From NCBI GenBank assembly GCA_014323865.1, contig JACONG010000010.1, positions 124,001 to 188,000 on the forward strand: a stretch of 64,000 nucleotides of DNA, in the 5' to 3' direction. The position numbers and the translations under genes were made by a program. The DNA comes from Rhodospirillales bacterium (lineage in GTDB: Bacteria; Pseudomonadota; Alphaproteobacteria; SP197). Under the pieces are notes generated by a model. It was not told where the DNA came from. It was given only the letters and a program-made list of their open reading frames with translations, and did not search any database. Shown piece by piece: positions 1,602 to 31,164 of this stretch; positions within the stretch are counted from its first letter, which is position 1; each line of letters opens with the position of its first letter.

Positions 1602-1800
1602 GCGAGGGGAATGTCACTCCGGCCCGATACAACCGCTGGCACCCGGTGCATTCTCAATGTCGGCCTGACGCGGGTCGTTTTCCAACGCATTGCGTCGTTC
1701 ACGGGACAAACGGGGTTGGCTACCCTCGTTAGCTTGCGCCGCCTTTTCGGCTGTGGTCGAAAGGTTCGTCTTCGTTGGGGCGATCGGCGTAGAAGCTGCC
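1602..1800. promoter_or_regulatory. Intergenic region upstream of the sox operon
   Basis: Non-coding stretch between the divergent remnant and soxB. It should carry the sox promoter, but I could not identify a convincing -35/-10 pair, operator or strong ribosome site. The soxB frame stays open back to 1690 but the extra 37 residues do not resemble the family. Confidence 0.35.
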
Positions 1801-3048: not shown

Positions 3049-3061
3049 GGGAGGAACGAGG

Positions 3062-3355
3062 ATGCTTCTGATCACCTGCCCCTGGTGCGGCGAACGCGAG
3101 AGTTCCGAGTTCATCTGCGGCGGCGAGGGTCACATCGTACGGCCCGATCCCAGGACCGCGACCGATGAGGAGTGGGCCGACTATCTCTTCATGCGCAAGA
3201 ACCCCAAGGGTGTGCACTTTGAGCGCTGGTTCCATGCGCATGGCTGCCGCCAGTGGTTTCACGTCGCGCGCGACACCGTGACCCATGAGATCCTCGCAGT
3301 ATACGGCATCACCGAGAAGCCGCCCGCCCGCGACGGCGGGGAGAGCGACCGATGA
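3062..3355 (+). CDS. soxD: Sarcosine oxidase delta subunit
   Basis: 97 residues, the normal size of this small subunit. The N-terminus MLLITCPWCGERESSEF gives Cys6 and Cys9; with a downstream His and Cys (HAHGCRQWFH) they form the zinc site known in SoxD. The body ends in the conserved RDTVTHEILAVYG. It is a structural subunit of the cytoplasmic SoxBDAG complex. Start preceded by a GGGGAGGA-like ribosome site at about 3049-3058. Its last four bases overlap the soxA start (ATGA), indicating coupled translation. Confidence 0.96.
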   Translation: MLLITCPWCGERESSEFICGGEGHIVRPDPRTATDEEWADYLFMRKNPKGVHFERWFHAHGCRQWFHVARDTVTHEILAVYGITEKPPARDGGESDR

Positions 3356-6300: not shown

Positions 6301-6357
6301 GCGAAGGTCGTGAAACCGGTCTTCTTCGACGAGGAGGGGGAGCGTCTCCGTGGCTGA
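3352..6357 (+). CDS. soxA: Sarcosine oxidase alpha subunit
   Basis: 1001 residues, as expected for SoxA. An N-terminal ferredoxin-fold domain without cluster cysteines (residues about 15-85, including GRSFKYHRPRGIV) is followed by an NAD/FAD-binding oxidoreductase domain (GGGPAG at 175-180, ATGAIERPLVFAQNDRPGVM further on) and a C-terminal GcvT-like folate-binding half from about residue 600. SoxA holds NAD+ and the folate site; formaldehyde released at SoxB is channelled here to form 5,10-methylene-tetrahydrofolate. Start overlaps soxD by 4 bp and the end overlaps soxG by 8 bp, so the complex is translated from one message. All expected domains are intact. Confidence 0.97.
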   Translation: MSQPFRNSDGGHVDRGQRVNFTFDGRSYTGHGGDTLASALLANGIRLVGRSFKYHRPRGIVSAGSEEPNALIQLATDAHTEPNIRATQIELYDGLVAESQNRWPSLNLDVGGINNVLSKIFPAGFYYKTFMWPDGAWMFYEKFIRRAAGLGRAPTEPDPDSYEKRRTHCDVLVVGGGPAGLAAAHAAGASGARVILADEQSAFGGSLLSSRAGIGGEPAAEWVAGMVRDLEAMPEVRLLSRTTVAGYYDHNFLMAAERLTDHQPIGERIGPRQRVWKIRARRVVLATGAIERPLVFAQNDRPGVMLADSVRTYVNRYGVRPGNRAVVFTNNDSAYRAAADAADGGIHVVAIIDVRARPEGGPVRAARDRGIKVIARSAITNVTGARQVAGVDVMALGDDGTSVSGAARSFGCDLVMMSGGWNPTVHLASQSGARMRWDEGLASFVPGVLKQAQASVGAAGGTLSLAGCLAEGSEAGAEAATSAGFPVAPMAVPDVEADESDGVLNLEAIWSVPTDRKGAKRFHDFQNDVTASDIALAHRENYASIEHVKRYTTTGMGTDQGKTSNVNGLAILADLRGEPIPQVGHTTFRPMYTPVTIGALAGIDTGSELLDPVRKTPMHGWHEKHGARFEDVGAWKRPYCYLRDGETVKQAVDREVLAARTSVAILDASTLGKIDIQGPDAAGFLDRIYTNRFSTLKVGSCRYGLMCKDDGMVFDDGVTARIGENRFLMSTTTGGAPNVLNWLEEWLQTEWTDLEVYCTSVTTQWAAIAIAGPDSRRLLSELTAMDLSNEAFPFMTWQDGEVAGIEGRIFRISFSGETGFEVHVPSSCALALWRALITAGETYNITTYGTEAMHVLRAEKGFIIVGQDTDGTTTPHDLGMSWIVSRKKDDFLGMRGLLRPDTLREDRKQLVGLLTENPNEVIPEGAHISPEPAAQAPVPMEGWVSSSYYSPNCGRSIAMALLKRGHERMGEQVAIPLENRIVRAKVVKPVFFDEEGERLRG

Positions 6358-7021
6358 CAGCTATCTCCGCCAGAGCCCGCTGGCCCATCGCGCGCTCGAC
6401 GCACGGGCGTCCGACGACACGGGTGCGGCCGCGCTGGTGCTCACCGAGCGGCGCTTCCTCGCCAAGATCAACATTCGCGGCAAGGCTGACGGTGCAACCG
6501 TGAGGCAGGCGGTCGGCGTGGAACTGCCGCCCGAGCCCAACACCGTGGCCGAGGGCAACAACCTCTGCGCGTTGTGGCTTGGGCCGGCCGAATGGCTGAT
6601 CGTCGGTCCGGCAGGGGCGGAAGCGGCGATCGAAGAGAACCTGGTCGAAGCGCTCGCCGGCGCCAGTGCGTCGGTCGTCGATGTCACGGAGGGTCGCTCC
6701 ACGATCCGCGTCAGCGGAGACATGGCCCGCGATGTGATTGCCATGGGCTGCCCGCTCGACCTGCATCCGCGTGCCTTCGGAACGGGACGCTGCGCTCAGA
6801 GCTTCATCAGCCGCAGCCCGGTCATCATCCACCAGGTGGCGGACAACGCTGTGTTCGACATCCACATCGAACGCAGCCAGACCGACTACCTCTGGACCTG
6901 GTTCGAGACCGGCGGCGGCCCCTACGGCGTGGCGGTGGTGCCCGAGCCCGGGACACCGACCTGGTGTCGTCCGGCCCGCTCCAGCGCCAGCGCCAAGGCT
7001 AGCGCCAAGGCCAGCGAATGA
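6350..7021 (+). CDS. soxG: Sarcosine oxidase gamma subunit
   Basis: 223 residues from a GTG at 6350 that overlaps soxA by 8 bp, with a GGAGGGGGAG ribosome site just upstream inside soxA. The protein has the GcvT-like fold of SoxG (LCALWLGPAEWLIVG, SVVDVTEGRSTIRVSG, HPRAFGTGRCAQSFISRSPV). SoxG caps the alpha subunit of the complex. The last about 15 residues are a low-complexity tail (SSASAKASAKASE) not usual for the family. Last gene of the sox cluster; a hairpin follows at 7079-7105. No glyA or purU accompanies the cluster here, unlike in many proteobacteria. Confidence 0.93.
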   Translation: MADSYLRQSPLAHRALDARASDDTGAAALVLTERRFLAKINIRGKADGATVRQAVGVELPPEPNTVAEGNNLCALWLGPAEWLIVGPAGAEAAIEENLVEALAGASASVVDVTEGRSTIRVSGDMARDVIAMGCPLDLHPRAFGTGRCAQSFISRSPVIIHQVADNAVFDIHIERSQTDYLWTWFETGGGPYGVAVVPEPGTPTWCRPARSSASAKASAKASE

Positions 7022-7214: not shown

Positions 7215-8801
7215 TCAGGTGAAGGCGTCGGGCATCGAGTCCTTCTTTCTGGTCATGAACGCGATCAGCGCTTCGTCGATGCCGGGATCGATGGAAGGTG
7301 CCTCGTAGTCGGCCAGCATCTCCTTCCAGAGCTTGTTGGCGCGCCTGGCGGCGTCCAGCGAGCCTTCCGACTCCCACTGCTCGAAGCTGTTGTTGTCGGC
7401 GATCGTCGAGCGATAAAAGGCGTTCTCGAAGTTGGCCTGGGTGTGGGCGCAGCCGAGGAAATGCGCACCCGGTCCGACCGTGCGGATGGCGTCCATGGCC
7501 TGGCCGTTCTCGGAGATGTCGACGCCGCCGGCCAGCACCTGCATCATGCCGATCTGGTCGGCATCCATGACGAACTTCTCGTAACCCGAGGCAAGGCCGC
7601 CTTCGAGCCAGCCCGCGGCATGCAGCACGAAGTTCACACCACCCATCAGGGTCGGCAGGATCGTCTGGGCACTCTCATAGGCCGCCTGGGCGTCGGGGAT
7701 CTTCGAGCCGCACAGCGAACCGCCCGAACGGAACGGTACGCCCAGGCGGCGTGCAAGCTGGGCCGAGGCGAAGAGCACCAGGGCCGGTTCCGGCGTGCCG
7801 AAGGTCGGCGCGCCCGACTGCATCGAGATTGAGCTGCCGAAGGTGCCGAACACCACCGGTGCGCCCTTGCGGATCAGCTGTGTGGTCGCCATGCCGACGA
7901 GTGCCTCGGCAAACAGCTGGGCCACGGTGCCGGCCACCGTCACGGGGCTCATCGCGCCTGCCAGGATGAACGGGGAGACGACGCAGGCCTGGCCCGCGCC
8001 GGCATAGACCTTCATGGCCCCCAGCATGGTGCCGTCGAAGGTCATGGGCGAGTTGGCGTTGATCAGATTGATGATGCAGCAGCTGTTCTCGACCGTGTCC
8101 TCGCCGAGCACGATCTTTGCCATGTCGACGGTGTCCCGGGCGCGCTCGGGCGCTGTCACCGAACCCATGAACGGCTTGTCGCTGTAGCGCAGGTGGGCGT
8201 AGACCATGTCGAGGTGACGCTTGTTCACCGGGATGTCGACCGGCTCGCACACGGTGCCGCCCGAGTGGTGCATGGCGGGCGTCATGTAAGCCAGCTTCAC
8301 GAAGTTGTTGAAGTCCTCGATCGTGGCGTAGCGCCGACCTTCATCAAGATTGCGGATGAAGGGCGGTCCGTAGACAGGAGCGAAGACGGTGGCACCGTCG
8401 CCGATCTTGACAGTGCGGTCGGGATTGCGTGCGACCTGCATGAAGTGCCTCGGTGCCGTCTTCAGCAGCTCGCGGGCCAGGCCACGCGGCACATGCAGTG
8501 TCTCGCCATCCCTGGCGACCTGGGCACCGGCGTCCTTCCACATCGCCACGATCTCGGGATCGTCCTTGATGGCGATGCCGACCTCTTCCATGATGGTTTC
8601 GGCGTTGTTCTCGATGATCTCCATGCCCTCTTCGGAGAGGACATCGAACACGGGCACTTTGCGCTGGATATAGGGCAGGGGCGTGGTGTCGAACTTCTGG
8701 CCGCGTTGCGCCCGTCGTGCGCCGCTGCCGCCCCGGTCGCCGCGTCCCCTGCGGCCCCGACGTCCGCCCCCTGCCTGGCCCTGATCCTGTTCGTCGCTCA
8801 T
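7215..8801 (-). CDS. MttB-family (COG5598) methyltransferase, paralogue 1
   Basis: 528 residues from the ATG at 8801, which has a good AGGAG ribosome site 7 nt upstream; the reading frame extends further but without homologous sequence. The body is a trimethylamine methyltransferase-family TIM barrel (NLINANSPMTFDGTMLGAM, SPFILAGAMSPVTVAGTVAQ, SGAPTFGTPEPALV, FVLHAAGWLEGGLASGYEKF). No in-frame TAG is present, so this is a non-pyrrolysine member; characterised bacterial members demethylate glycine betaine and other quaternary amines onto a corrinoid protein. Residues about 10-35 form an unusual Arg/Gly-rich tail (GGGRRGRRGRGDRGG) absent from the three other paralogues in the window. It lies between sox and the GST/dehydrogenase genes, which supports methylamine catabolism. 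No corrinoid protein gene is adjacent. The substrate is unknown. Confidence 0.9.
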   Translation of the reverse strand: MSDEQDQGQAGGGRRGRRGRGDRGGSGARRAQRGQKFDTTPLPYIQRKVPVFDVLSEEGMEIIENNAETIMEEVGIAIKDDPEIVAMWKDAGAQVARDGETLHVPRGLARELLKTAPRHFMQVARNPDRTVKIGDGATVFAPVYGPPFIRNLDEGRRYATIEDFNNFVKLAYMTPAMHHSGGTVCEPVDIPVNKRHLDMVYAHLRYSDKPFMGSVTAPERARDTVDMAKIVLGEDTVENSCCIINLINANSPMTFDGTMLGAMKVYAGAGQACVVSPFILAGAMSPVTVAGTVAQLFAEALVGMATTQLIRKGAPVVFGTFGSSISMQSGAPTFGTPEPALVLFASAQLARRLGVPFRSGGSLCGSKIPDAQAAYESAQTILPTLMGGVNFVLHAAGWLEGGLASGYEKFVMDADQIGMMQVLAGGVDISENGQAMDAIRTVGPGAHFLGCAHTQANFENAFYRSTIADNNSFEQWESEGSLDAARRANKLWKEMLADYEAPSIDPGIDEALIAFMTRKKDSMPDAFT

Positions 8802-9292
8802 CGAAAACTCCTGCGTTTTCGCGATTTGTGGCTGCTTATGACACGCGGTCGGGAGCCAAATCGGCCAGATTGCGCCGCAGATGCGGGCCATTTCGTCGTC
8901 TGCGGTCGGATTATCCGCCGGTTCCGGTTTGCCGCCCGTCTGTGGCTGGACCGGGGTTCCAGCCGGCAAGGCGAGGAACCGTGGCATGGCAGGCAACGTC
9001 TTCGTCGACGGATGGAAAGGACACACCCTGCTGGTGGGAGCGCGCAGCCAGGCCCGATTGGCCGGAGGCGACGCTGCCTGGCAAGGTCGATGTCGAGGAC
9101 TTCCTTGCGGGCGAGCAGATCCGCTCCGGGATGCCATGACCGCGGATGTAATCCGATGACCGCGACCGGGTTTCTTGCGGCGCTGGGTTATGCCATTGAC
9201 ATGGTTCGCTCCTTGTCGCCAGACCTGTGGCGGCCATAACTGGGACCGACCACAAAAGAGCCCGGACAAGGACCCGGACAGGAGGAACAGCC
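8802..9292. promoter_or_regulatory. Divergent promoter region between the MttB gene 1 and the GST gene
   Basis: 491 bp without a convincing gene. It must hold the divergent promoters of the MttB gene and the GST gene. A perfect 7-bp inverted repeat (GGCTGGA, 8944-8950; TCCAGCC, 8958-8964; 7-nt loop) is visible. Short open frames on both strands show no recognisable protein; some may be gene debris. The GST gene has a clear GGAGGAAC ribosome site at its end. Confidence 0.4.
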
Positions 9293-10186: not shown

Positions 10187-12622
10187 ATGAAGACCCATGC
10201 TCGTGTTGTCGTGATCGGTGGTGGTGTTGTCGGTGTCGGCACGCTCTACCACCTTGCCAGGAAGGGTTGGACCGATGTGGTCCTGGTCGAGCGCAAGGAG
10301 CTGACATCGGGCTCCACGTGGCATGCTGCCGGATTGCTGCCACTCTTCAACATGAGCTACTCGGTCGGCCAGGTACACAAGTATTCGGTGCGCTTCTATC
10401 AGGAGCTCCAGGAAGAGACCGGCATGGATGTCGGCTTCAGGAAGGTCTCCAACATCCGCCTCGCGACCAACCGCGACCGCATGGACGAGTACCATCAGTA
10501 CGCCGGTGTGGCCGAGACCATCGGCGTCGAGGTCAATTTTCTCACGCCGGACGAGGTCGGGGAGGTCTGGCCGCTGTGCGACACCACCGGGCTGGTCGGT
10601 GCGATCCAGCATCCCGAAGACGGCTACATTCAGCCCGCCGATCTGACCCAGGCCCTTGCCGCCGGCGCGCGGAACCGGGGCGCCGAGATCGACCGTAACA
10701 CCTGCGTCACCGGCATCGAGCGCACCTCGGGCGGCGAGTGGCTGGTCAGGACCGACAAGGGCGACATCACCTGCGAGCACATCGTGACCGCTTCGGGCAG
10801 CTTCGCCCGCGATGTCGGCGCAATGATGGGGCTCGAGGTTCCGGTCATTCCTGTCGAACACCAGTACATCGTCACCGACTCCCATCCCGCGATCGTCGCC
10901 CGCAAGGAGCAGGGCCTGCCCGAAATGGGCGTGCTGCGCGGTTCGGACGGCAGCTGGTACATGCGCGAGGAGCGCGGCGGCCTGATCCTCGGCCCCTACG
11001 AGGCCGGTGCGCCGGCCTGCTATGTCGACGGTCCTTCCGACGACATGGAATACGAACTCTTCCAGGAGGACATCGAGCGCCTGGCACCGCATATCGAGTC
11101 GGCGATCGAGCGGGTGCCGGCCTTCGGGGAGGTCGGCGTCAAGCAGGTCTACAACGGTGCGATCTGCTACACACCCGATGGCTCGCCCATTATCGGCCCG
11201 GCCTGGGACCTCCCGAACGTCTGGCTCAACGAAGGCCACAGCTTCGGCATCACCGCTGCCGGCGGTGCTGGCTGGCAGCTTGCCGAGTGGATGGTCGACG
11301 GCACGCCCACGATCGACATGCTGGGCGTCGACCCCCGCCGCTTCGGCGACTACTGCACCAGGTCCTTCCTCGTGAAGAAGAACGAGGAGGCCTACGCCAA
11401 CGTCTTCACGATCCACTACCCCGACGAGGAGCGCGAAGCGGGCAGGCCGCTGCGCACCTTCCCGTGCCACGACCGGCTGAAAGAACTGGGGGCCGTCTTC
11501 GGCCAGACGTTCGGCTGGGAGCGGGCCAACTGGTTCGCGCCCGAGGGCACGCCACGGGAAGACGACTGGTCGTTCCGTCGCTCGGCCTGGTTCGAGCCCG
11601 TCGGCAACGAGGTCCGCAACACGCATGAGAACGTCGGCATGCTCGACATGTCGGCCTTCGCCAAGTGCCGTATCTCTGGCCCCGGTGCCGAGGACTTCCT
11701 CGACTCCATGATCGCCAACAAGCTGCCGAAGACCGTCGGCCGTGTCGGTCTCGTGCATTCGCTGACCGATCCCGGCGGTGTGCATTCCGAGTTCACGATC
11801 CGGCGCGAGGCGGCTGACAGCTTCTACATCGTCAGTGCGGGCGCCACGACACGCCTCGACCACGACTGGCTCAGGAAGCACATGCCGACCGACGGCTCGG
11901 TGCGCTTCGACGACCTGACCAACCGGATGGGCGTGCTGGTGATCGCGGGGCCGAAGTCCCGCGAACTGTTGCAGCGCATCACCCGCGATGATCTCTCCAA
12001 CGAGGCCTTCAAGTGGCTTTCGGGACGCTGGATCGACGTCGGCCTCGCACCGTCGCTCGCGATCCGCATGAACTTCGTCGGCGAGCTCGGTTGGGAGCTT
12101 CACCACCCGGTCGAGTACCAGAACCATATCTTCGATGCCGTCATGGCCGCCGGCGAAGACCTCGGCATCAGGCCCTTCGGCATCCGTGCCATGGATTCGA
12201 TGCGGCTCGAGAAGTCCTACAAGCTCGTCGGCCAGGAGATGTCGATCGAATACGCCGCCTTCGAGAGCGGGCTCGATCGGTTCGTCCATCTCAACAAGGG
12301 CGACTTCAAGGGCCGGCAGGGCCTGACCGCGTGGCAGCAGCGCGGTTTCCGGAATCGGTTCGTCACAATGGAGGTACACGACGTGACCGACGCCGACGCG
12401 CTGGGCAACAACCCGATCCGCAAGGACGGCAAGCTGGTCGGCCGCGCCACCTCCGGCGGCTATGGCTTCCGGATCGGCAAATCGATGGTGCTCGCCATGG
12501 TCCATCCCGACCAGGCGGCCGAGGGCAACGAACTCACGATCGACATTCTGGGTGAGACCAGGCGGGTGACGATCCTGCCGGAAAGCCCGTTCGATCCCGG
12601 AAACGAACGCCTGCGCGCCTGA
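10187..12622 (+). CDS. FAD-dependent dehydrogenase with GcvT domain (dimethylglycine/sarcosine dehydrogenase type)
   Basis: 811 residues, normal for the DMGDH/SarDH family. The FAD-binding GGGVVGVGTLYHLA is at residues 11-24; His46 in GSTWHAAGLL is the position that carries covalent FAD in dimethylglycine dehydrogenase. The middle holds the DAO fold (AICYTPDGSPIIGPAWDLPN) and the C-terminal half from about residue 430 is a GcvT folate-binding domain (AFAKCRISGPGAEDFLD, GIRAMDSMRLEKSYK). Expected reaction: oxidative N-demethylation of dimethylglycine or sarcosine with methylene-tetrahydrofolate as one-carbon product. Together with sox and the MttB genes it completes a path from betaine-like amines to glycine. 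GAGGGAG ribosome site 6-8 nt before the ATG. Dimethylglycine versus sarcosine specificity cannot be decided by reading. Confidence 0.92.
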   Translation: MKTHARVVVIGGGVVGVGTLYHLARKGWTDVVLVERKELTSGSTWHAAGLLPLFNMSYSVGQVHKYSVRFYQELQEETGMDVGFRKVSNIRLATNRDRMDEYHQYAGVAETIGVEVNFLTPDEVGEVWPLCDTTGLVGAIQHPEDGYIQPADLTQALAAGARNRGAEIDRNTCVTGIERTSGGEWLVRTDKGDITCEHIVTASGSFARDVGAMMGLEVPVIPVEHQYIVTDSHPAIVARKEQGLPEMGVLRGSDGSWYMREERGGLILGPYEAGAPACYVDGPSDDMEYELFQEDIERLAPHIESAIERVPAFGEVGVKQVYNGAICYTPDGSPIIGPAWDLPNVWLNEGHSFGITAAGGAGWQLAEWMVDGTPTIDMLGVDPRRFGDYCTRSFLVKKNEEAYANVFTIHYPDEEREAGRPLRTFPCHDRLKELGAVFGQTFGWERANWFAPEGTPREDDWSFRRSAWFEPVGNEVRNTHENVGMLDMSAFAKCRISGPGAEDFLDSMIANKLPKTVGRVGLVHSLTDPGGVHSEFTIRREAADSFYIVSAGATTRLDHDWLRKHMPTDGSVRFDDLTNRMGVLVIAGPKSRELLQRITRDDLSNEAFKWLSGRWIDVGLAPSLAIRMNFVGELGWELHHPVEYQNHIFDAVMAAGEDLGIRPFGIRAMDSMRLEKSYKLVGQEMSIEYAAFESGLDRFVHLNKGDFKGRQGLTAWQQRGFRNRFVTMEVHDVTDADALGNNPIRKDGKLVGRATSGGYGFRIGKSMVLAMVHPDQAAEGNELTIDILGETRRVTILPESPFDPGNERLRA

Positions 12623-12877: not shown

Positions 12878-13513
12878 ATGATCCAACGTGCATATGCAGG
12901 TTTCATTGCCGGGCTTCTGCTGATCGCCATCGGGCGCGCTGAAGCGCATCCCCATGCCTGGATCGATCTCGTGAGTGCGCCTGTGTTCAACGATGCGGGA
13001 GAGATCACCGGCATCGAGCAGACATGGACCTTCGATATCTACTACTCGCTTTTCATCGTCGAGGAGCTGAAGGCCGAAGGGGGTGTCACGCAGGCCGGTC
13101 TTCAGGACGTGGCCGACGAGAACATGATGACCCTGGAGCCCTTCCGCTACTTCAACGATGTGCGCATCGGCTCTCATTCTCTGGCGCTCGGCATTGCGGA
13201 GGGTGCGGTGACGGGGATCGCGGGCGAACGGATCTGGATGCGTTTCACGGTTCCGCTTGAGCAGCCGATCGATCCTCGTGACGACGCCATTCGTTATGCC
13301 ATCTTCGATCCGACCTACTTCGCCGAGATGTTGCATGTCGAGGGCGAACCGATCTCGCTCGCCGGTGGTGCGCCGTCCGGATGCGACACGGACCTGATCG
13401 CGCCGGAGCCGACGCCCGAGGCGGTCGGGTTGGTCGCCGCCCTCGACATCAATGCCACCGCTCCCGACAACTTGGGTGAATTGTTCGCCGAATGGATCGC
13501 AGTGGATTGCTGA
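12878..13513 (+). CDS. DUF1007 family periplasmic protein
   Basis: 211 residues. The N-terminus is a signal peptide (GFIAGLLLIAIGRAEA) followed directly by the HPHAW motif that defines DUF1007 (HPHAWIDL, then ITGIEQTWTFDIYYSLF). The protein is exported to the periplasm. It overlaps the NicO transporter gene by 22 bp, a pairing seen repeatedly with metal uptake systems, so it probably presents or buffers Ni2+, Co2+ or Zn2+ for the transporter; histidines next to the cleavage site fit metal binding. Its biochemical role is not established. Confidence 0.85.
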   Translation: MIQRAYAGFIAGLLLIAIGRAEAHPHAWIDLVSAPVFNDAGEITGIEQTWTFDIYYSLFIVEELKAEGGVTQAGLQDVADENMMTLEPFRYFNDVRIGSHSLALGIAEGAVTGIAGERIWMRFTVPLEQPIDPRDDAIRYAIFDPTYFAEMLHVEGEPISLAGGAPSGCDTDLIAPEPTPEAVGLVAALDINATAPDNLGELFAEWIAVDC

Positions 13514-14409
13514 ACCCGCCCGCGCGGGTCTGGGGGATTGTCGCACTCGCCGGGACCCTGGCGGGCTGCCTTGTTGTCTGGCTGATTGCCGTCACGGGGC
13601 TGTGGGGCGATGCCGTTGTCTGGATTCAGGCTCGGCAAAGGGCATTCTTCGATGCCCTGACCGCAGCCATCCATGCGATCCGTGAGCAGGGCCGCGCCGC
13701 GGCGTGGACGCTGATCGCTGTGAGTTTCCTCTACGGCGTGTTCCATGCGGTCGGGCCCGGGCATGGCAAGGCGGTGCTGGCGACCTATCTGATGACCCAG
13801 CGCAGCGATCTGGCGCGGGGGCTCGGATTGTCGTCGATGTCGGCCATGTTCCAGGGACTGACGGCCATCGTCGCCGTTCAGGTGGCGGTGCTGATCCTTG
13901 AAATCCCCTTGCGGCAGGCACGCGGCCTGGCAACCGATCTCGAAACGGTCAGCTATGGCCTTGTCATGCTGATCGGCGTGGTCCTCTGCATCTCAGCCCT
14001 GCGGCGCATGAGAGGGAAGGGGCATCGCCACCATCACGGTTCGGTCGAAGCGGGCTGGGGGTGGCGCAAGCTGGTGGCTGTGGCCTTCACCATCGGCCTG
14101 CGCCCCTGCAGCGGCGCCATCCTTGTGCTCCTGCTCGCCTGTGCTATCGATCTGCGCTGGGCCGGCATCGGGGCCGCGATCGCCATGTCGGCGGGCACGG
14201 CACTCTCGCTCGGCATTCTTGCGTTGGTGACGCTGGTGTTTCGCGATCATGCGGCACAACTGGCCGAACGGCTCGGGCACAGCCACTCTCACAGCCATGG
14301 GCCGAACTGGACCGACTGGATCGCCCTTGCCGGCGGCGTTGTGATCCTGCTGCTCGGTCTGTCACTCCTCAGGACGGCGCTCGCCACACCACAACACCCC
14401 TTGTTCTGA
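13492..14409 (+). CDS. NicO-family nickel/cobalt transporter
   Basis: 305 residues from ATG 13492, overlapping the DUF1007 gene by 22 bp. Hydrophobic segments fit six or seven membrane helices. The signature HAVGPGHGKAVLATYLM lies near residue 90, and two His-rich loops follow (GKGHRHHHG; LGHSHSHSHG), with RPCSGAILVLLLAC in a later helix. It should move Ni2+ or Co2+ (possibly other divalent ions) across the inner membrane. Cobalt supply would suit corrinoid-dependent MttB methyltransferases nearby, but that link is inference. A short imperfect duplication (CCCCTTGTTCTGAGG, twice) covers the stop codon region at 14397-14428. Confidence 0.87.
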   Translation: MDRSGLLNPPARVWGIVALAGTLAGCLVVWLIAVTGLWGDAVVWIQARQRAFFDALTAAIHAIREQGRAAAWTLIAVSFLYGVFHAVGPGHGKAVLATYLMTQRSDLARGLGLSSMSAMFQGLTAIVAVQVAVLILEIPLRQARGLATDLETVSYGLVMLIGVVLCISALRRMRGKGHRHHHGSVEAGWGWRKLVAVAFTIGLRPCSGAILVLLLACAIDLRWAGIGAAIAMSAGTALSLGILALVTLVFRDHAAQLAERLGHSHSHSHGPNWTDWIALAGGVVILLLGLSLLRTALATPQHPLF

Positions 14410-14442: not shown

Positions 14443-15972
14443 CTAGGCCGCCTTGCCGTGGATCGCTTCCTTGCGCTGGGCAACGTAGTCCCGCATCGCC
14501 TCCTCCCTGGCGGGGTCGAGCGGCGGTTTCTCGTAGTTCTTCAACATGCGCTTCCAGACGTCGTTGGCGCGTGTGGCGGTGTCCTTGGCGCCAGCCTCCG
14601 ACCAGTTCTCGAAGTTGTTCCAGTCCGACACCAGCGGTGCGTAGAAGGCGTCCTCGTAGCGCGCCAGCGTATGTCGGGCGCCGAAATAGTGCCCGCCCGG
14701 CTGGACCTCGGCGATGGCGTCGAAGGCGAGGCTGTCGTCGTCGACCCGAATGCCTTCCAGATAGACCGCCATCATTTGCAGCATCTCGACGTCGATGATC
14801 AGCTTTTCGAAGTTGCCGACAAGGCCGCCTTCGAGCCAGCCCGCGGCGTGAAAGATGATGTTGGCGTGGCCCATGACTGCGGCCCAGAGCGACATCATGC
14901 TCTCATAGGCGGCTTGGGCATCGGGCGCATTCGATGCGTTTGTGTTCGATGAACGATAGGGCACCCCGTAGCGGCGGCAGAGCTGACCGGTCGCCTGGGT
15001 CGCCAGTGTGTATTCCGGCGTCCCGAAGGCCGGTGCGCCGGTCTTCATGTCAACATTGCTGGTGAAGCCGCCGTAGACCGCAGGCGCGCCGGGCCGGACG
15101 ATCTGGATCAGCGCCAGGCCGAACAGCGCCTCGGCGTTCTGCTGAGCCAGCGCGCCCGCCACGGTGGCGGGCGCCATCGCGCCGGACAAGGTGAAGGGTG
15201 TGACGACCACGGGCTGGTTGGCACGGGTCAGCGTCAGAAGCCCCTGGGCCATGTTGGCGTCGAGCTGTCGCGGCGAGTTCGTGTTGATGCCGCCCGCTGT
15301 CACGACCTTCCGCTCCAGGTCGCTGTCGTTCATGCCATGGGCAATCTTGGCGAGTTCCAGGCCGTCGCGTGCCCTGCCGGCACCCAGAAGGCCCGATCCC
15401 ACCACCTTGTCGGTCAGCGTGTAGGCCGCGAGCCCCTGATCGAGGTGGCGCGAGTCCTGATGAAGATCGAGCGGCGCGAACGATCCCGCACCGCTGATCT
15501 GGAGAATGTCGAACATCTGGATCAGGCGAATGAAATCACAGAGTTCGTTGAAAGTGCCGGCGCGTCGACCGCGGTCGAGATCGCTGGTGAAGGCAGGCCC
15601 GCCGACCGGTCCGAAGTTGATGACGTTGCCGCCGACCTCGATCGATTTTGCAGGATTGCGTGCGTGCTGTGTAAAATGTTCGGGTGTCGTCGTGATCCGT
15701 TCCTCCACGAGCCCGGGCTCCATGAAGACCATCTCGCCTGCCTCGTCGACCCGCGCACCGGCATCGCGCAGCAGGCTCCGCGTCTCCCCGCAGAGCACCT
15801 TCATGCCGAGTTCGTCGAGCACGCGCAGCGACGTGCGGTGGATCGCCTCGATCTGATCGGCGCGCAACGGTTCGATCGGCGGGAAGGGGTTCTCGACCTT
15901 GCGCCACGGCAGGGTGTTGAGCGCCCTGCGCTCGGTGCCCAGGTCCTTCCGCGTCCGGCGTTGTCGCGCCAT
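14443..15972 (-). CDS. MttB-family (COG5598) methyltransferase, paralogue 2
   Basis: 509 residues; ATG at 15972 with GGGAG 7 nt upstream. It shares with paralogues 3 and 4 the N-terminal LPWRKVENPFPPIEPL block and the core motifs ITTTPEHFTQHARNP, TPFTLSGAMAPATVAGALAQ, GGFTSNVDMKTGAPAFGTPE and IIFHAAGWLEGGLVGNFEKL. It has no in-frame TAG, so it is a non-pyrrolysine member. It should transfer a methyl group from a quaternary or tertiary amine (or related onium compound) to a corrinoid or other acceptor in the cytoplasm. It is divergent from the tandem DddP-like genes, with a 127-bp shared promoter region, which links it by position to onium-compound catabolism. The substrate is unknown. Confidence 0.9.
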   Translation of the reverse strand: MARQRRTRKDLGTERRALNTLPWRKVENPFPPIEPLRADQIEAIHRTSLRVLDELGMKVLCGETRSLLRDAGARVDEAGEMVFMEPGLVEERITTTPEHFTQHARNPAKSIEVGGNVINFGPVGGPAFTSDLDRGRRAGTFNELCDFIRLIQMFDILQISGAGSFAPLDLHQDSRHLDQGLAAYTLTDKVVGSGLLGAGRARDGLELAKIAHGMNDSDLERKVVTAGGINTNSPRQLDANMAQGLLTLTRANQPVVVTPFTLSGAMAPATVAGALAQQNAEALFGLALIQIVRPGAPAVYGGFTSNVDMKTGAPAFGTPEYTLATQATGQLCRRYGVPYRSSNTNASNAPDAQAAYESMMSLWAAVMGHANIIFHAAGWLEGGLVGNFEKLIIDVEMLQMMAVYLEGIRVDDDSLAFDAIAEVQPGGHYFGARHTLARYEDAFYAPLVSDWNNFENWSEAGAKDTATRANDVWKRMLKNYEKPPLDPAREEAMRDYVAQRKEAIHGKAA

Positions 15973-16099: not shown

Positions 16100-17350
16100 A
16101 TGAACGACATTCCCCTCGAAAGCATCCGCATGGCGCGCGATACGCGCGGCATTGCGCAGCACGATGCCGAGCCGCAGATCGATATCGTGCGGATGCGTGG
16201 CTACCGACTCGGCCGCGTGCAGCAGATGCTGCAGGAGAGGAACCTCGGCGGCGTCTTGCTCTACGACCCGATCAATGTGCGCTACGCCAACGGCTCGTCG
16301 AACATGCAGGTCTGGATCCTGCATAACCAGCACCGCTACTGCTGGGTACCCGCCACGGGCAAGACGGTGCTGTTCGACGATCCGCTCACCGTCCATCTGG
16401 CGGAGCATCTGGAGACCATCGCCGAGATCCGGCCGGCGCGGACATGGACCTATTTCGGTGCAGGCGACGACTATGAAAGTAAGGTCACCGTGTGGGCCGA
16501 TGAACTGGCCGATGTGATCCGCGAGACCGCCGGCGGCGAGACGCGCGTGGCCGCAGACCACCTCGACCCCTCAGGCGCGAAGGCGCTGGAGGCCCGGGGT
16601 TTCACGATCCACAACGGCCAGGAAGTCATGGAGCGGGCCCGTTCGATCAAGTCCGATGACGAGATCCGGGCGATGCTGATTTCGATCTCCGTCTGCGAGG
16701 CCGGCATGGCGAAGATGCAGGAGGAGCTCAGGGCCGGCATCACCGAGAATCAGCTCTGGTCGAACCTCCATCAGGTCAACATCGCCATGGGTGGTGAGTG
16801 GATCGAAACCCGACTGCTGTCCTCGGGCGGGCGCACCAACCCGTGGTTTCGCGAATGCAGCGACCGGATCATCCGGGCGGGCGAACTGGTGGCCTTCGAC
16901 ACCGATATGATCGGTCCCTTCGGTTACTGTTCCGACATCAGCCGCACCTGGTTCTGCAAGCCTGGCCGCCCGACCGACGAGCAGAAGCGCCTTTACAACT
17001 ACGCTTACGAGCAGATCCAGACGAACATCGACGAGATGCGCGCGGGGCGCACCTTCCGCGAGGTCGCCGAGACCTCCTGGCGGGTGCCCAACGAGTTCGT
17101 CGCCCGGCGCTACGGGGCGATGACCCACGGCGTGGGCCTTGCCGACGAATGGCCATATCTGACCTTCTCCGACAAGGCCGATACCTCAATGCCCGGCATG
17201 CTGGAAGCCGGCATGACCGTCTGTGTCGAGAGCTACATCGGGGCCGAGGACGGCAACGAGGGCGTCAAGCTGGAGGAGCAGGTCCTGGTCACCGGGGACG
17301 GTCCCCAGCGCCTGTCGACCTATCCTTACGAACACGAGCTCCTGAACTGA
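16100..17350 (+). CDS. DddP-like M24-fold enzyme (candidate DMSP lyase), copy 1
   Basis: 416 residues from ATG 16100 (an ATG at 16067 is also possible; the ribosome site is weak). Fold: creatinase-type N-domain, then a pita-bread M24 domain from about residue 180. It matches DddP rather than peptidases: LLYDPINVRYANGSSNMQVW at 54-72, GGEWIETRLLSSGGRTNPWF at 231-250. Metal ligands are visible as Asp267, Asp269, Asp279, His343, Glu377 and Glu393. After HGVGL comes Ala-Asp-Glu-Trp-Pro, so Asp349 stands where DddP has the Asp proposed as catalytic base; true M24 peptidases have a His-Glu pair near here. DddP cleaves dimethylsulfoniopropionate to dimethyl sulfide and acrylate. Alternative: a creatinase-like hydrolase feeding sarcosine to SoxBDAG. 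Family call strong, substrate inferred. Confidence 0.82.
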   Translation: MNDIPLESIRMARDTRGIAQHDAEPQIDIVRMRGYRLGRVQQMLQERNLGGVLLYDPINVRYANGSSNMQVWILHNQHRYCWVPATGKTVLFDDPLTVHLAEHLETIAEIRPARTWTYFGAGDDYESKVTVWADELADVIRETAGGETRVAADHLDPSGAKALEARGFTIHNGQEVMERARSIKSDDEIRAMLISISVCEAGMAKMQEELRAGITENQLWSNLHQVNIAMGGEWIETRLLSSGGRTNPWFRECSDRIIRAGELVAFDTDMIGPFGYCSDISRTWFCKPGRPTDEQKRLYNYAYEQIQTNIDEMRAGRTFREVAETSWRVPNEFVARRYGAMTHGVGLADEWPYLTFSDKADTSMPGMLEAGMTVCVESYIGAEDGNEGVKLEEQVLVTGDGPQRLSTYPYEHELLN

Positions 17351-17358
17351 GAGCCGCC

Positions 17359-18621
17359 GTGTCCCGGCAAGACCTCGAAAGCATCGCTCCAGACAGCAAC
17401 ACACTGGCCCGCAACACACCGGGTCTTGCGCAGCACGACGCTGAACCGCAGATCGACATGAAGCGCATGCGTGCCTACCGGCTGGGCCGCATTCAGGAGC
17501 AGCTCGGGCGCCTCGATATCGGCGGCATCATCCTCTACGACCCGCTCAACATCCGCTACGCGACCGGCTCGTCCAACATGCAGGTCTGGTTCACCCACAA
17601 CCCGATCCGCTACTGCTGGGTCCCGGTCGAAGGCGTGCCGGTGCTGTTCGACTATGCGAAGTCGATGCACCTCCATGGCCATCTGGAAACCATCCGCGAG
17701 GTCCGGCCGGCGATCGGCTACATTTACATGACCGCCTCCGAACGTATCGATGAGCGGGTCGCGCTCTGGGCAAGGGACATCGACGAGGTCATGCGCGGCG
17801 ACAACGCGGGCAAGCGCATTGCCGCCGACCGTCTCGATTTCGAGGGTGCCAACGCCCTGCAGGCGATGGGTTACGAACTCCACAGCGGCACGCGCGTCAC
17901 CGAGCTGGCGCGCGTCATCAAGTCCGACGACGAGGTCGCCGCCATGTGCATCGCGATCTCGGCCTGCGAGGCCGGCATGACGAAGATGCATGAGGAGCTC
18001 CGGCCCGGCATCACCGAGATCGAGCTCTGGTCGCATCTCCACCGGGTCAACATCGCGCTCGGCGGCGAATGGATCGAGACCCGGCTTCTGGCATCGGGCG
18101 GGCGCACGAACCCGTGGTTCCGCGAGGCGTCCAGCCGGATCATCCGGGCCGGCGAGCTGGTCGCCTTCGACACCGATCTCGTCGGACCGCTGGGCTACTG
18201 CGCCGATATCTCACGCACGTACTTCTGCGGGCCCGGGCGCCCGACCGACGAACAGAAGCGGCTCTACACCTATGCCTACGAGCAGGTGCAGCACAACATC
18301 GACATGCTGCAGCCCGGCATGACCTTCGTCGAGGCGGCCCAAAAGTCCTGGCGCATCCCCAACGAGTTCCACGCCCGCCGCTATGGCATCACCGCCCACG
18401 GCGTCGGCCTGGTCGACGAGTACCCGTCGATCGCCTTCACCGACAATGCCGATATGTCGTCGACCGGCATGCTGGAGACCGGCATGACGCTCTGCGTCGA
18501 AAGCTACATCGGTGCCGAGGACGGCAACGAAGGCGTGAAACTCGAAGAGCAGGTCCTGATCACCGACAAGGGTGCGGCACGGCTCTCGACCTTCCCTTAC
18601 GAGGATGTGCTGCTGAACTGA
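17359..18621 (+). CDS. DddP-like M24-fold enzyme (candidate DMSP lyase), copy 2
   Basis: 420 residues from a GTG 8 bp after the stop of copy 1, so the two are cotranscribed. It is a clear tandem duplicate: the QHDAEPQID, SSNMQVW, GGEWIETRLL, SGGRTNPWFRE and SYIGAEDGNEGVKLEEQVL blocks are shared. Metal ligands: Asp271, Asp273, Asp283, His347, Glu381, Glu397. The proposed catalytic Asp is kept (Asp353 in HGVGLVDEYP), but the Trp after it in copy 1 and in DddP is Tyr here, and residues after FDTD differ (LVGPLGYCAD). The copies may differ in substrate, for example DMSP against another onium or N-methyl compound. A REP-like element follows the stop. Confidence 0.82.
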   Translation: MSRQDLESIAPDSNTLARNTPGLAQHDAEPQIDMKRMRAYRLGRIQEQLGRLDIGGIILYDPLNIRYATGSSNMQVWFTHNPIRYCWVPVEGVPVLFDYAKSMHLHGHLETIREVRPAIGYIYMTASERIDERVALWARDIDEVMRGDNAGKRIAADRLDFEGANALQAMGYELHSGTRVTELARVIKSDDEVAAMCIAISACEAGMTKMHEELRPGITEIELWSHLHRVNIALGGEWIETRLLASGGRTNPWFREASSRIIRAGELVAFDTDLVGPLGYCADISRTYFCGPGRPTDEQKRLYTYAYEQVQHNIDMLQPGMTFVEAAQKSWRIPNEFHARRYGITAHGVGLVDEYPSIAFTDNADMSSTGMLETGMTLCVESYIGAEDGNEGVKLEEQVLITDKGAARLSTFPYEDVLLN

Positions 18622-25161: not shown

Positions 25162-26898
25162 TCAACGTGGCAGGTAGTGAGGGTATGACGGCAACTCCCC
25201 GAGCAGGAAACGCGACAGCAATCGGGCCTGCACGATCAGCATTCGGCGCATGCTGACGCGGTAGCCGAAGACGGGGTGTGTCGTTTCCTGCGACAGCCGG
25301 CGTTCGAAGGCCTGCACGAACCTGCGGCGGCCGGCCTGGTTCAGCGCCGTTCCGGTCGGGGCCACGACAAAATCGCCTGGCCGGATTTCGCCGTTGTTAA
25401 CAGCATTGAGGACAACGCTGTCGGCGATGATCGGCCGGAACGGTTCCATGATATCGAGCGCAAGCGCCGGTCGTCCGTAGCGCGGCGCATGGAAAAAGCC
25501 GCGATAGGGATCGAGCCCGACGGAACTGAGTGCGACGGTCAGGTGCCGCGTCAACATGGCATAGGCCAGGGACAGCATGGCGTTGACGGGGTCCGCCGGA
25601 GGGCGGCGATTTCTGGCCCTGAAGTCGAAAGCGTGCGATCCCTTGTCGGATTGCGGCGCGTCGATCAGCCCGGCAAAGGCACGGAAGTAAACGGCCGCCG
25701 CATCCCCTTCGAGGCCAAGAAGCCTTGCGGGTGTCTCGGCACCTCCGACGGATTTCCTGGCCGCTGCCAGGCGATCAAGGACGGGTTTGCGTTCATCCGG
25801 CATTCCCCGCCAGTTTCGCCGCAGGATCGTCCGCTGGTTGACGATCTTGGCAGCAACGAGCTCCCGTGAAAAACGCAAACAGGCCGCCCTGTCGAAGCTC
25901 ATGGCATATTGTGCCGTGCGCACCTCGACATTGCGATGCCCCGCGCCGTGTGCAATGCCGCGAAACCAGCCGCCGTAGCTGTGGAAACTGACCGGGATCT
26001 CCCGTTCAAGCAGGGCCGAGAGGGCCGGCGTCGTGATCGCGATATTGCCGAACAGCGCGACATCGGAAATGTCGATAAGGCGAACCCGGGTCTCCTCTTC
26101 GTCATGGCTGATTTTCAGGGATTGCGCGTCCTTGCCGATACGGGCCCCCTGGGCCTGAACCACAAGCGGCAAGGCGTCATCCGCGGGCACGGCGACAGAA
26201 CGCGGTTCGAGGGACATGCCCGACAGGCAGCGAACCTCATCGGGCAGGCACACGGTCACAAGCGCACACCGCGGACATTTCGGGCTGTCCTTCAGGGGCG
26301 GCGGTATGCGGCCCTGCGTCACGGTCAGCCGCAAATCGCCGACTGCCGCGAGCGTTACAGACCGCAGGTCGTCATCGAGCGCCACCCGCACACGCTCTCT
26401 GCTGCCGGCATACCATATCGCACCCTCTTCGACGCGATAGCCATGCTCTTCGAGAAGCAGGGCCTGAAGGCACACCTGGATGCGTTCGGGCTCAAAAGCA
26501 CCGTGTGCGACATGCGGGCGCTTGCCGCGCTTGTAGTCGACGGGCGTGACCGTGCCGTTCCCGGCCTCTGCGACATCGAGCCTGGCAATAACGCCCAGCC
26601 GCTGCGATGACAGTGTCATCGAACGACTGACGACGCTTTCAAATTCGGCAGCGTCGTCGTCGAGCGCTTCGGGTGCCGGCAACGGCGTACCGGGCTTGTC
26701 GACACGGGCGTGGACGCGCCGGCCCTCGACCGTATCGCCGGTCTCGGCCCATTCGCCCTGTGCCCACATCAGATAGGCCAGGCGCGGACAATAGACGAAT
26801 TCGTTGACCATGCGGGCCGGGGCCAGTGGGGTCTGGTCATCGGCCGCGGGCGCCGTAAGGTGCAGTTCAAACTGGCCGCCGGATGTCATCGTCGCCAT
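25162..26898 (-). CDS. cas4-cas1: Cas4-Cas1 fusion protein, subtype I-G (I-U)
   Basis: 578 residues from ATG 26898 (ATG 26889 also possible); the longer open frame upstream is antisense to csb2. Residues about 25-235 are a Cas4 RecB-like nuclease: Cys37, Cys208, Cys211 and Cys217 for the iron-sulfur cluster, and Asp121/Lys123 in PVDYKRGKRP. Residues about 245-578 are Cas1, with likely active-site Glu397 (LGLEGDAAAVYF), His470 (GFFHAPRYG) and Asp482/Glu485 (LALDIMEPFRP). Cas4 trims and orients prespacers by PAM; Cas1 integrates them. The fusion is a hallmark of I-G. It overlaps the 3' end of csb2 by 32 bp. All catalytic residues are present, so adaptation looks intact. Confidence 0.96.
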   Translation of the reverse strand: MATMTSGGQFELHLTAPAADDQTPLAPARMVNEFVYCPRLAYLMWAQGEWAETGDTVEGRRVHARVDKPGTPLPAPEALDDDAAEFESVVSRSMTLSSQRLGVIARLDVAEAGNGTVTPVDYKRGKRPHVAHGAFEPERIQVCLQALLLEEHGYRVEEGAIWYAGSRERVRVALDDDLRSVTLAAVGDLRLTVTQGRIPPPLKDSPKCPRCALVTVCLPDEVRCLSGMSLEPRSVAVPADDALPLVVQAQGARIGKDAQSLKISHDEEETRVRLIDISDVALFGNIAITTPALSALLEREIPVSFHSYGGWFRGIAHGAGHRNVEVRTAQYAMSFDRAACLRFSRELVAAKIVNQRTILRRNWRGMPDERKPVLDRLAAARKSVGGAETPARLLGLEGDAAAVYFRAFAGLIDAPQSDKGSHAFDFRARNRRPPADPVNAMLSLAYAMLTRHLTVALSSVGLDPYRGFFHAPRYGRPALALDIMEPFRPIIADSVVLNAVNNGEIRPGDFVVAPTGTALNQAGRRRFVQAFERRLSQETTHPVFGYRVSMRRMLIVQARLLSRFLLGELPSYPHYLPR

Positions 26899-29158
26899 TA
26901 TTGTCCGCGACGAACGGACTTTCCGCGACGAACAGGCCCCCGCCGCGATGGCTGTCGCGACCGAGCAGCAACGGCCCGTCCACGGCGGTGGTGAAACGCA
27001 GGCGCAGGCGGGCCGAAGGGTTCCCGCCTTTTGGCCCCGCACGGAACGCCAGAACGTCGATGCACGGCACGGGCAGGCCGCGGCGTCGGCATTCGAGCGC
27101 GGCATCCTCGCACACCGCCGCTTCCGCGTCGCGGCCACGGCTGGCGTGACGGGTCGGACGATAGGGCGTTCGGCTTGTCCAGGCCCGTGCGGGTCCGACA
27201 ATCGGATCGCCCTCGGGAGGCGTAACGGGTTCGGCAAATTCCAGGACACCGAGCCGACCGGCCCGCAACCGGCGCAGGCACGGAACGATCTCGTCGAACA
27301 TCGCACGCTCTGCGGGTTTCGGAGCGCCCCGCGAACGATCGCAGAGCCACGGCGCAGCCACCAGAAGCCGGTCGAGATGACCATCGCCATCGGCATCCTC
27401 GGCGGTCAGGAAGATATGGCGGTGTCGGCCCGATCGTGCCGGCCCGTCGCCTTCGTGGCCGCAGAAAAGAAGAGGCACATTGCCGTCGTCGCATCGGGAA
27501 AGCGCCATCAGCGCCCTGCGCACGGCCTCAAGCAACGGGCCGGTATCGGCGACGCCGATGCGGTTTTCCGGCGGCATGGCAAACACCCACAGGCCGCGGC
27601 CTGTCCTGCGGACAGGCTGCATGAGACCGAGGCCGACATAGCGGCCATCGCCGATCGCGAGCGGGCCGGGAACCGGTTCCCGGAAGACGATCTCCAGATG
27701 CCACAGGCGGGAGGCGCAGAACCGCCCCGCCGCAAAGGCTTCGGCACGGGTGCCCTTTGCATCGAACGGCTCCCGCTGGACCCGCACCGTCATGGGGGGT
27801 ACGGCGATCCCGGCATGGCGCAGGGCCCGGGTGACCGCGCCAGTCGCCCGTGCCTCCTCCTCAAGCCGAACGGGTGCGGATTTGCGACCGCCGGCGCGCC
27901 TGGCAGAAAAGGGTAGCGCCACCGGCGTCACCGATCGCCATGACCGATGGCCTTTTTCGTCGGCGATCCCGTAGTGCTTCAGCATCGTGTCGGCGGCAGT
28001 CGGCAGAAGACGGCGTCCCCTGCCCAGATCGAGGCCCGCAAAGGCCCAGTCGATGTCGCCGGATTCGATCCTGCAGTCCGGCGGAACCTCGACCAGCAGG
28101 CGGCGGATGCCGTAATCGGCGTGCTTATGGCCGATGGACGGCAACGGCACGATGCGAATCCGCGCACTCTTGTCGCGCGGCCCGGCACCGCGTCCAATCA
28201 CAAGGCGCTCGATCTCCGCTTGCCGCTTTGGAAGTCCCGAAGCCAGTCCCGAAATGAGCCTGGCGGCGGCCAGATCGCGCACCCTCTCGACCAGCTGCAC
28301 CGCGTCGGACGCCGACTGTGGCTGCCAGCCCTGGCCCGCAGTATCGCGAATCTCGTAAACCCTGTGCCATGGCGGGCTGTCACATGGCTGGCTGCCATAG
28401 GCAATGCGGTTGAAACGGGGCTTCGGCGGCTGGGCAAAAACCAGCCCGTCGGGTACGCGGTGTGCCGGATCCTTCTTCGTCGGCTTGTTCCGGTAACGGG
28501 GCGAAAACCGGCTGACGAATGCACGATGGCGCGCGATCAGACTGTCGAGCGAGCCGGGCACAGGACAGGCAAGGGGGCGGGACCCGTTGCCCCCAGGGCG
28601 GTACACCACTCCACCGTTGTTGGCGTGATCGGCGAGCCGTTTTTCGCCGTCTCGCCCGTCGAGCATCTCCCCGCATGCCCATGCCATGTCCACGCCGCGG
28701 CCCAACTGGAACACGTCCTCCGCCATGGCGCATACATATGAGGCATGAACGTCGTTCTCCGGATCGTCATCGACGGTCCACATGTACAGAAAAGGCATGT
28801 CGGCCTTGAAGATCTGCGGTCGGATCGTCTTCCCGACACGGATGCTGGCCACTGCTGCGGCAAGATTGCCGCCGTGTTTCTTCTCCCTGAGCGCCGCGTC
28901 GAGATCGTTGTTCGGGACATATGTCGTATGGCCGACTCCCGTTCGCCCGGGCGGCGCGGCGATCGAAGGCGGCGCGAGCCCTTCGAGCCAGCGCAGCGCC
29001 GCCGTCGCCTCCTCGGCCACAACCCCACCCCGCGCACCCCCCGCAAGCAGCGCCTGGAAAAGACGCGCCGGCGCAGGGGGCCAGTCGCCGACACCGTCGC
29101 TGACACCATGGTAGCGGCCGTCATGGAAGCGGACCGAGAGGAGAAGCGCCCGGACCAT
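26867..29158 (-). CDS. csb2: Type I-G Cascade subunit Csb2 (Cas5-Cas6 fusion)
   Basis: 763 residues. The N-terminal Cas5-like part shows RALLLSVRFHDGRYHG and DWPPAPARLFQALLAG. The C-terminal Cas6-like part ends with ARLRLRFTTAVDGPLLLGRD then HRGGGLFVAE, the Gly-rich loop of RAMP RNA-binding proteins. In I-G systems Csb2 processes pre-crRNA and caps the 5' handle in the effector. The protein seems long for the family. It begins 3 bp after csb1 and overlaps cas4-cas1 by 32 bp. Confidence 0.92.
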   Translation of the reverse strand: MVRALLLSVRFHDGRYHGVSDGVGDWPPAPARLFQALLAGGARGGVVAEEATAALRWLEGLAPPSIAAPPGRTGVGHTTYVPNNDLDAALREKKHGGNLAAAVASIRVGKTIRPQIFKADMPFLYMWTVDDDPENDVHASYVCAMAEDVFQLGRGVDMAWACGEMLDGRDGEKRLADHANNGGVVYRPGGNGSRPLACPVPGSLDSLIARHRAFVSRFSPRYRNKPTKKDPAHRVPDGLVFAQPPKPRFNRIAYGSQPCDSPPWHRVYEIRDTAGQGWQPQSASDAVQLVERVRDLAAARLISGLASGLPKRQAEIERLVIGRGAGPRDKSARIRIVPLPSIGHKHADYGIRRLLVEVPPDCRIESGDIDWAFAGLDLGRGRRLLPTAADTMLKHYGIADEKGHRSWRSVTPVALPFSARRAGGRKSAPVRLEEEARATGAVTRALRHAGIAVPPMTVRVQREPFDAKGTRAEAFAAGRFCASRLWHLEIVFREPVPGPLAIGDGRYVGLGLMQPVRRTGRGLWVFAMPPENRIGVADTGPLLEAVRRALMALSRCDDGNVPLLFCGHEGDGPARSGRHRHIFLTAEDADGDGHLDRLLVAAPWLCDRSRGAPKPAERAMFDEIVPCLRRLRAGRLGVLEFAEPVTPPEGDPIVGPARAWTSRTPYRPTRHASRGRDAEAAVCEDAALECRRRGLPVPCIDVLAFRAGPKGGNPSARLRLRFTTAVDGPLLLGRDSHRGGGLFVAESPFVADNNGDDDIRRPV

Positions 29159-29161
29159 GGC

Positions 29162-31163
<2,002 letters not shown>

Positions 31164-31164
<1 letters not shown>

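Follow-up and report, generated by a model that had tools for sequence, protein, structure and literature searches.

DddP is an enzyme that releases dimethyl sulfide (DMS) from the marine compound DMSP, and its gene is a standard marker for DMS production in ocean surveys. The active-site tunnel of DddP is formed by both of its subunits. The six metal ligands of RdDddP and RlDddP are D295, D297, D307, H371, E406 and E421; Tyr366 and Asp377 sit above the metal site, and a catalytic role has been proposed for them (PMC4108388). A second group of described systems relevant here demethylates quaternary amines with corrinoid proteins, as in the glycine-betaine system of marine bacteria (PMC12478193).

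A tandem gene pair in a methyl-group catabolic neighbourhood

The window, a stretch of 64,000 nucleotides from a Rhodospirillales bacterium, contains two co-directional, intact open reading frames encoding DddP-like M24-fold proteins: gene A (16100–17350, + strand, ATG start, 416 aa) and gene B (17359–18621, + strand, GTG start, 420 aa). The genes are 8 bp apart, and their products are 65% identical (BLASTP) and carry the Pfam domains Peptidase_M24 and Creatinase_N. The DddP block GGEWIETRLL.SGGRTNPWF, which the original prediction had reported for both proteins, was found in A and in B.

The neighbours named in that prediction, MttB, dimethylglycine-dehydrogenase (DMGDH)-like and sarcosine oxidase genes, are all present in the window. 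Divergent from A lies an MttB-superfamily methyltransferase gene (14443–15972, − strand; PF06253, 644 bits), whose adjacency is kept in six relatives. The DMGDH-like gene (10187–12622, + strand) encodes a protein with FAD- and folate-binding domains (DAO/FAO_M/GCV_T), and its homologues also occur near DddP-like genes in other families. Heterotetrameric sarcosine oxidase genes occupy 1753–7021 (+ strand); SoxB (1753–3048) and SoxA (3352–6357) score above their NCBIfam cut-offs and a SoxG-like protein (6350–7021) reaches 121 bits, under its cut-off of 143.95. They are followed by a second MttB-superfamily gene (7215–8987, − strand). Between the DMGDH-like gene and the MttB gene next to A are genes for a DUF1007 protein (12878–13513, + strand; PF06226) and a NicO nickel/cobalt transporter family protein (13492–14409, + strand; PF03824); the latter adjoins MttB and could supply cobalt for corrinoid enzymes. 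Elsewhere in the window, type I-G CRISPR-Cas genes (25162–33932, − strand) include a Cas4g/Cas1g fusion (762 bits) and Cas3g (624 bits), each above its cut-off, with unannotated genes between them.

The A–B pair is found in the same order in related loci (L007–L012 and L036), and L013 and L014 also carry both copies, near contig ends. At least seven related genomes carry intact forms of both, with dN/dS values of 0.09–0.28. This purifying selection on both copies indicates that neither A nor B is a decaying duplicate. The pair, thought at first to be unusual, is thus real but not exceptional, since tandem copies recur: it is conserved in relatives, and L106 (3854–18672), from an unrelated alphaproteobacterial family, has five DddP-like genes in ~15 kb beside an MttB gene. 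One of these five proteins has Asn at the position of Asp377.

As in the window, MttB is divergent from and directly upstream of the pair in L008–L013; in L007 several genes separate the two. A DMGDH-like gene occurs close by in L007, L008, L010, L014, L036 and L015. Neighbouring genes of L007 and L129 were identified by tblastn, those of L007 also from gene calls. A metal ABC transporter with a ZnuA-type component is encoded directly upstream of the MttB/DddP-like genes in L008 (3060–6312), L010 and L036, and a Fur-family regulator was called beside it in L008 and L036. These transporter and regulator genes are absent at the corresponding place in the window.

Relation to DddP and other M24 enzymes

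The best PDB matches of A and B are four DddP sequences (1e-94 to 1e-99 for A, 4e-92 to 1e-96 for B), with ~40–42% identity to DddP structures over nearly the full length; prolidase follows at 4e-18 (A) and 2e-19 (B). An AlphaFold2 model of A (pLDDT 87.6) superposes on DddP with Z ~46 and an r.m.s.d. of 1.7–1.9, RlDddP being the best fold match, compared with Z ~33–34 and an r.m.s.d. of at least 2.7 for prolidases, DoeA and creatinase. In a phylogeny with DddP, creatinase and prolidase sequences, A and B group with DddP, far from the peptidases and creatinase. Tree and structure comparison together thus place A and B with DddP and not in a peptidase or creatinase clade, the placement that the original prediction had named as refuting it.

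On these two grounds we rejected a peptidase identity. Ordinary Xaa-Pro peptidases would carry the Pfam Peptidase_M24 and Creatinase_N domains seen in A and B, but such a function is extremely unlikely: their prolidase matches are ~80 orders of magnitude weaker than their DddP matches, the genome encodes a separate prolidase-like protein (L006), and RlDddP was inactive on Val-Pro (PMC5395565). The PepQ peptidase model gave 68 and 65 bits for A and B, far under its cut-off of 630.

Creatinase identity was likewise rejected, on the tree, the fold comparison and the presence of a separate creatinase in the genome (L005; PDB 1chm at 5e-176), to which A and B are only ~22–24% identical and from which they lie far apart in the tree. 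Related M24 enzymes hydrolyse C–N bonds of small solutes. Together with the shared fold (Z ~33 for creatinase and DoeA) and the nearby sarcosine oxidase and DMGDH-like genes, this would suit metal-dependent, creatinase- or DoeA-like hydrolases that act on an N-methyl or amide osmolyte and feed sarcosine oxidase. We consider this unlikely and rank it third, after the onium and DMSP lyases discussed below, as A and B are much nearer DddP in sequence, tree and fold, retain the DddP-type Tyr, Asp and sixth ligand D297, and coexist with the genome's own creatinase.

Residues were mapped by alignment to RlDddP, and the numbering was verified with the published RdDddP ligands (PMC4108388). The alignment bears out the claim that both proteins have all six metal ligands: D267, D269, D279, H343, E377 and E392 in A, and D271, D273, D283, H347, E381 and E396 in B. 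Tyr366 of DddP corresponds to Y338 in A and Y342 in B. The equivalents of the proposed catalytic base Asp377 are Asp349 in A (17144–17146, + strand) and Asp353 in B (18415–18417, + strand), in agreement with the numbering given previously. The accompanying statement that this Asp replaces a peptidase His does not hold as worded; in that column the genome's prolidase-like protein has Leu and its creatinase has Ser. Of 87 near-invariant DddP-clade columns, A keeps 78 and B 75, against 29 in the creatinase and 34 in the prolidase-like protein. Two other DddP-like proteins (L023 and L054) keep the six metal ligands but have Phe and Gly, respectively, in place of the Asp377 equivalent in the alignment, which makes them candidates for changed chemistry.

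Every Trp of RlDddP was also checked, to cover the one that is proposed to bind the sulfonium group together with a Tyr. The Trp-to-Tyr difference between A and B noted earlier (W351/Y355) is present but not special, being common across the family. Tyr occupies this position in 64% of the sampled DddP-clade rows, and also in L076–L079, which score above the DddP cut-off. Because Tyr is the commoner residue in the sampled clade, we dropped this difference as a mark of new specificity. Two other changes affect residues that are invariant in the DddP rows: Cys376 is replaced by Ala348 in A and Val352 in B, and Arg258 by Met230 in A and Leu234 in B. An unduplicated relative (L041) retains both the Cys and the Arg, indicating that the changes accompany the duplicated forms. 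Their loss could alter the chemistry of A and B.

Several results separate the pair from DddP itself. A and B score 410.4 and 396.5 bits with the NCBIfam DddP model NF043017, below its curated cut-off of 600. They have 30 (A) and 35 (B) residues before the domain, versus ~45–61 in the DddP-clade rows shown, and the N-terminal loop–helix appendix (RdDddP residues 10–50) is missing from both, although it may be dispensable for activity. In a tree built without the proven but divergent DddPs (Oceanimonas DddP1/DddP2, Fusarium DddP and scallop-symbiont HWgs001 DddP), RlDddP falls inside a 25-row clade (support 95/93; 22-row core 100/100), and A, B and their orthologues fall outside it; forcing A and B together with the 22-row core was rejected (p-AU 0.0036). 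In the window's family, all 16 searched genomes carry DddP-like genes and none passes the DddP cut-off. A class-wide sample gave a match at 1e-60 in 78 of 385 genomes, 12 of which pass. A and B therefore belong to the wider DddP superfamily (DddP-like M24), nearest to DddP in sequence and fold and with its residue set, and are not DddP in the narrow sense.

DMSP, MttB and the genomic context

The original prediction left a choice between DMSP lyases and enzymes acting on a related onium or N-methyl compound. Kinship with DddP and a link to methyl catabolism have both stood; the name DMSP lyase is unsupported for A and B, given their scores below the curated cut-off and their place outside the DddP clade. 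DMSP is nonetheless a plausible substrate in the cell, as the genome encodes DmdA (563 bits, cut-off 410) and two cupin proteins above the Pfam DMSP_lyase (PF16867) cut-off (G000:C10:52282-52701 and 119036-119473; L171 and L109). Both cupin genes lie only a few kb from an MttB gene. The cell's DMSP may be cleaved by something other than A and B.

The main rival explanation is that A, B or both are true DMSP lyases of a divergent DddP type, converting DMSP to DMS and acrylate. It draws on the complete DddP residue set of both proteins and on an organism that, from DmdA and the cupin proteins, appears to meet DMSP. Divergent DddPs can moreover be active: the Fusarium enzyme is only 32% identical to RdDddP (PMC4108388), and the scallop-symbiont HWgs001 DddP released DMS in E. 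coli (PMC10989825). For the latter, the published residue numbers (D263 and H339), with their spacing compared, imply a short N-terminus like those of A and B. These two enzymes keep the explanation open. We nevertheless regard it as doubtful: besides the sub-threshold scores, the position outside the clade and the loss of Cys376 and Arg258, no acrylyl-CoA reductase (AcuI/YhdH) scored above the TIGR02823 cut-off in the genome, and DddP proper lacks the MttB link.

That link was examined class-wide by comparing DddP-like with DddP-clade genes from 38 genomes outside the window's family. Among DddP-like genes scoring 375–450 bits, 9 of 22, spread across alphaproteobacterial families, have an MttB gene within 3 kb (0.14 expected; Poisson P = 5e-14), a calculation that ignores kinship between related genomes sampled together, such as G096/G302 and G286/G362, and uses bit-score bands chosen after the neighbourhoods had been seen. 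For weaker DddP-like genes the count was 2 of 21 (0.16 expected, P = 0.01), and for DddP-clade genes 0 of 20 (0.20 expected). The genomes are similarly rich in MttB, with 3.6, 4.1 and 4.4 listed genes per genome for the 375–450-bit, weaker and DddP-clade groups. The linkage is missing from most DddP-like loci, among them all 20 of a third sample. The connection with methyl-group catabolism thus recurs in unrelated families, and is stronger than could be known from the window. The MttB linkage of 375–450-bit DddP-like genes across families is new here; our search of the open-access literature found no paper tying a DddP-like or M24 protein to MttB systems, and nothing relevant on beta-alanine betaine lyases.

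In its fullest form (L114, L117 and L122), the neighbourhood comprises genes for a DddP-like protein, a B12-binding corrinoid protein, DUF1638, MttB, a DMGDH-like protein and a 2OG-oxygenase; L114 and L122 also encode a homocysteine methyltransferase and a RACo-type activase. These gene sets resemble the corrinoid system for glycine betaine in marine bacteria (PMC12478193). In all three loci the DUF1638 gene is flanked by MttB and the gene for the corrinoid protein, and it may be part of the system; by sequence resemblance, a similar gene stands beside a corrinoid protein gene in the window's genome (L109:13217-13837). About 8–16 kb upstream of the window are genes for MttB, a corrinoid protein, a folate:corrinoid methyltransferase, MTHFR-like proteins and an activase-like protein. 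MttB-family matches number 15 in the 2.82 Mb genome, and 11 of these are close to full length. The window contains four full-length MttB genes (7215–8987, 14443–15972, 34063–35598 and 35690–37123), and several more are on the same contig.

Proposed function and comparison with known systems

We tentatively favour, at somewhat under even odds, a role for A and B as paralogous dimetal lyases acting on a small methylated onium carboxylate, betaine- or DMSP-like, within a methyl-group catabolic island. The proposal builds on the computed fold and residue set, the place outside the DddP clade, the purifying selection on the conserved pair and the recurrent MttB linkage. Both proteins have the M24 'pita-bread' fold with a binuclear metal site and a DddP-type Tyr/Asp pair. 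The dimetal site would grip the carboxylate of the substrate, the alpha proton would be taken by Asp349 in A or Asp353 in B with the assistance of Tyr338 or Tyr342, and beta-elimination would release a methylated amine or sulfide. Methyl groups might then be removed from the substrate or the products by MttB, working with a corrinoid protein, and by the FAD/folate dehydrogenases. The reaction, its substrate and the way A and B share the work are inferences.

The eight DddP metal and catalytic residues kept in A and B argue for such a lyase. Against it, the M24 fold hosts mostly hydrolases, linkage is no proof of a shared pathway, the MttB link is missing at most DddP-like loci and loose in L007, and the Cys376 and Arg258 changes could have shifted the chemistry. 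A bolder and improbable version would make the MttB-linked DddP-like enzymes an unrecognised onium-lyase family for methylated ammonium acids, releasing for example the amine from a beta-trimethylammonio acid, with A and B as an obligate heterodimer. A heterodimer is possible in that both subunits form the DddP tunnel and the fixed A/B differences are located in both the N-terminal and the catalytic domains.

A large set of DddP-like proteins retains every proposed catalytic residue but branches apart from the DddP clade, and some of its members are linked with the corrinoid-dependent demethylation of quaternary amines. Should their substrates be nitrogen compounds, loose annotation counts too many DMS producers, and pathway maps lack a step in the turnover of marine methylamines; should they cleave DMSP, the capacity for DMS production is underestimated. 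We see A and B as a candidate step in methylated-nitrogen chemistry rather than as proven DMS producers.

Among known systems, DddP (RlDddP, 4rzy/4s00/4s01; RdDddP, 4b28; NF043017) shares with A and B the fold, the six ligands, Tyr366, Asp377 and the GGEWIETRLL block. A and B differ from it in their sub-cut-off scores, tree position, missing appendix and lost Cys376/Arg258, and in their linkage to MttB, which DddP proper does not show. Creatinase and the ectoine hydrolase DoeA have the two-domain M24 fold in common with A and B, at ~14–19% identity in structural alignment, and the metal and catalytic residues of A and B differ from those of creatinase. Xaa-Pro dipeptidase has the same fold and all but one of the six metal ligands; the prolidase copy compared lacks the sixth DddP ligand Asp297 and the Tyr366 and Asp377 pattern. 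The MttB/MtgB corrinoid quaternary-amine systems (PMC12478193) have neighbouring MttB and DMGDH-like genes in common with the A/B locus, and the corrinoid protein and folate methyltransferase genes that belong to them are found here upstream of the window.
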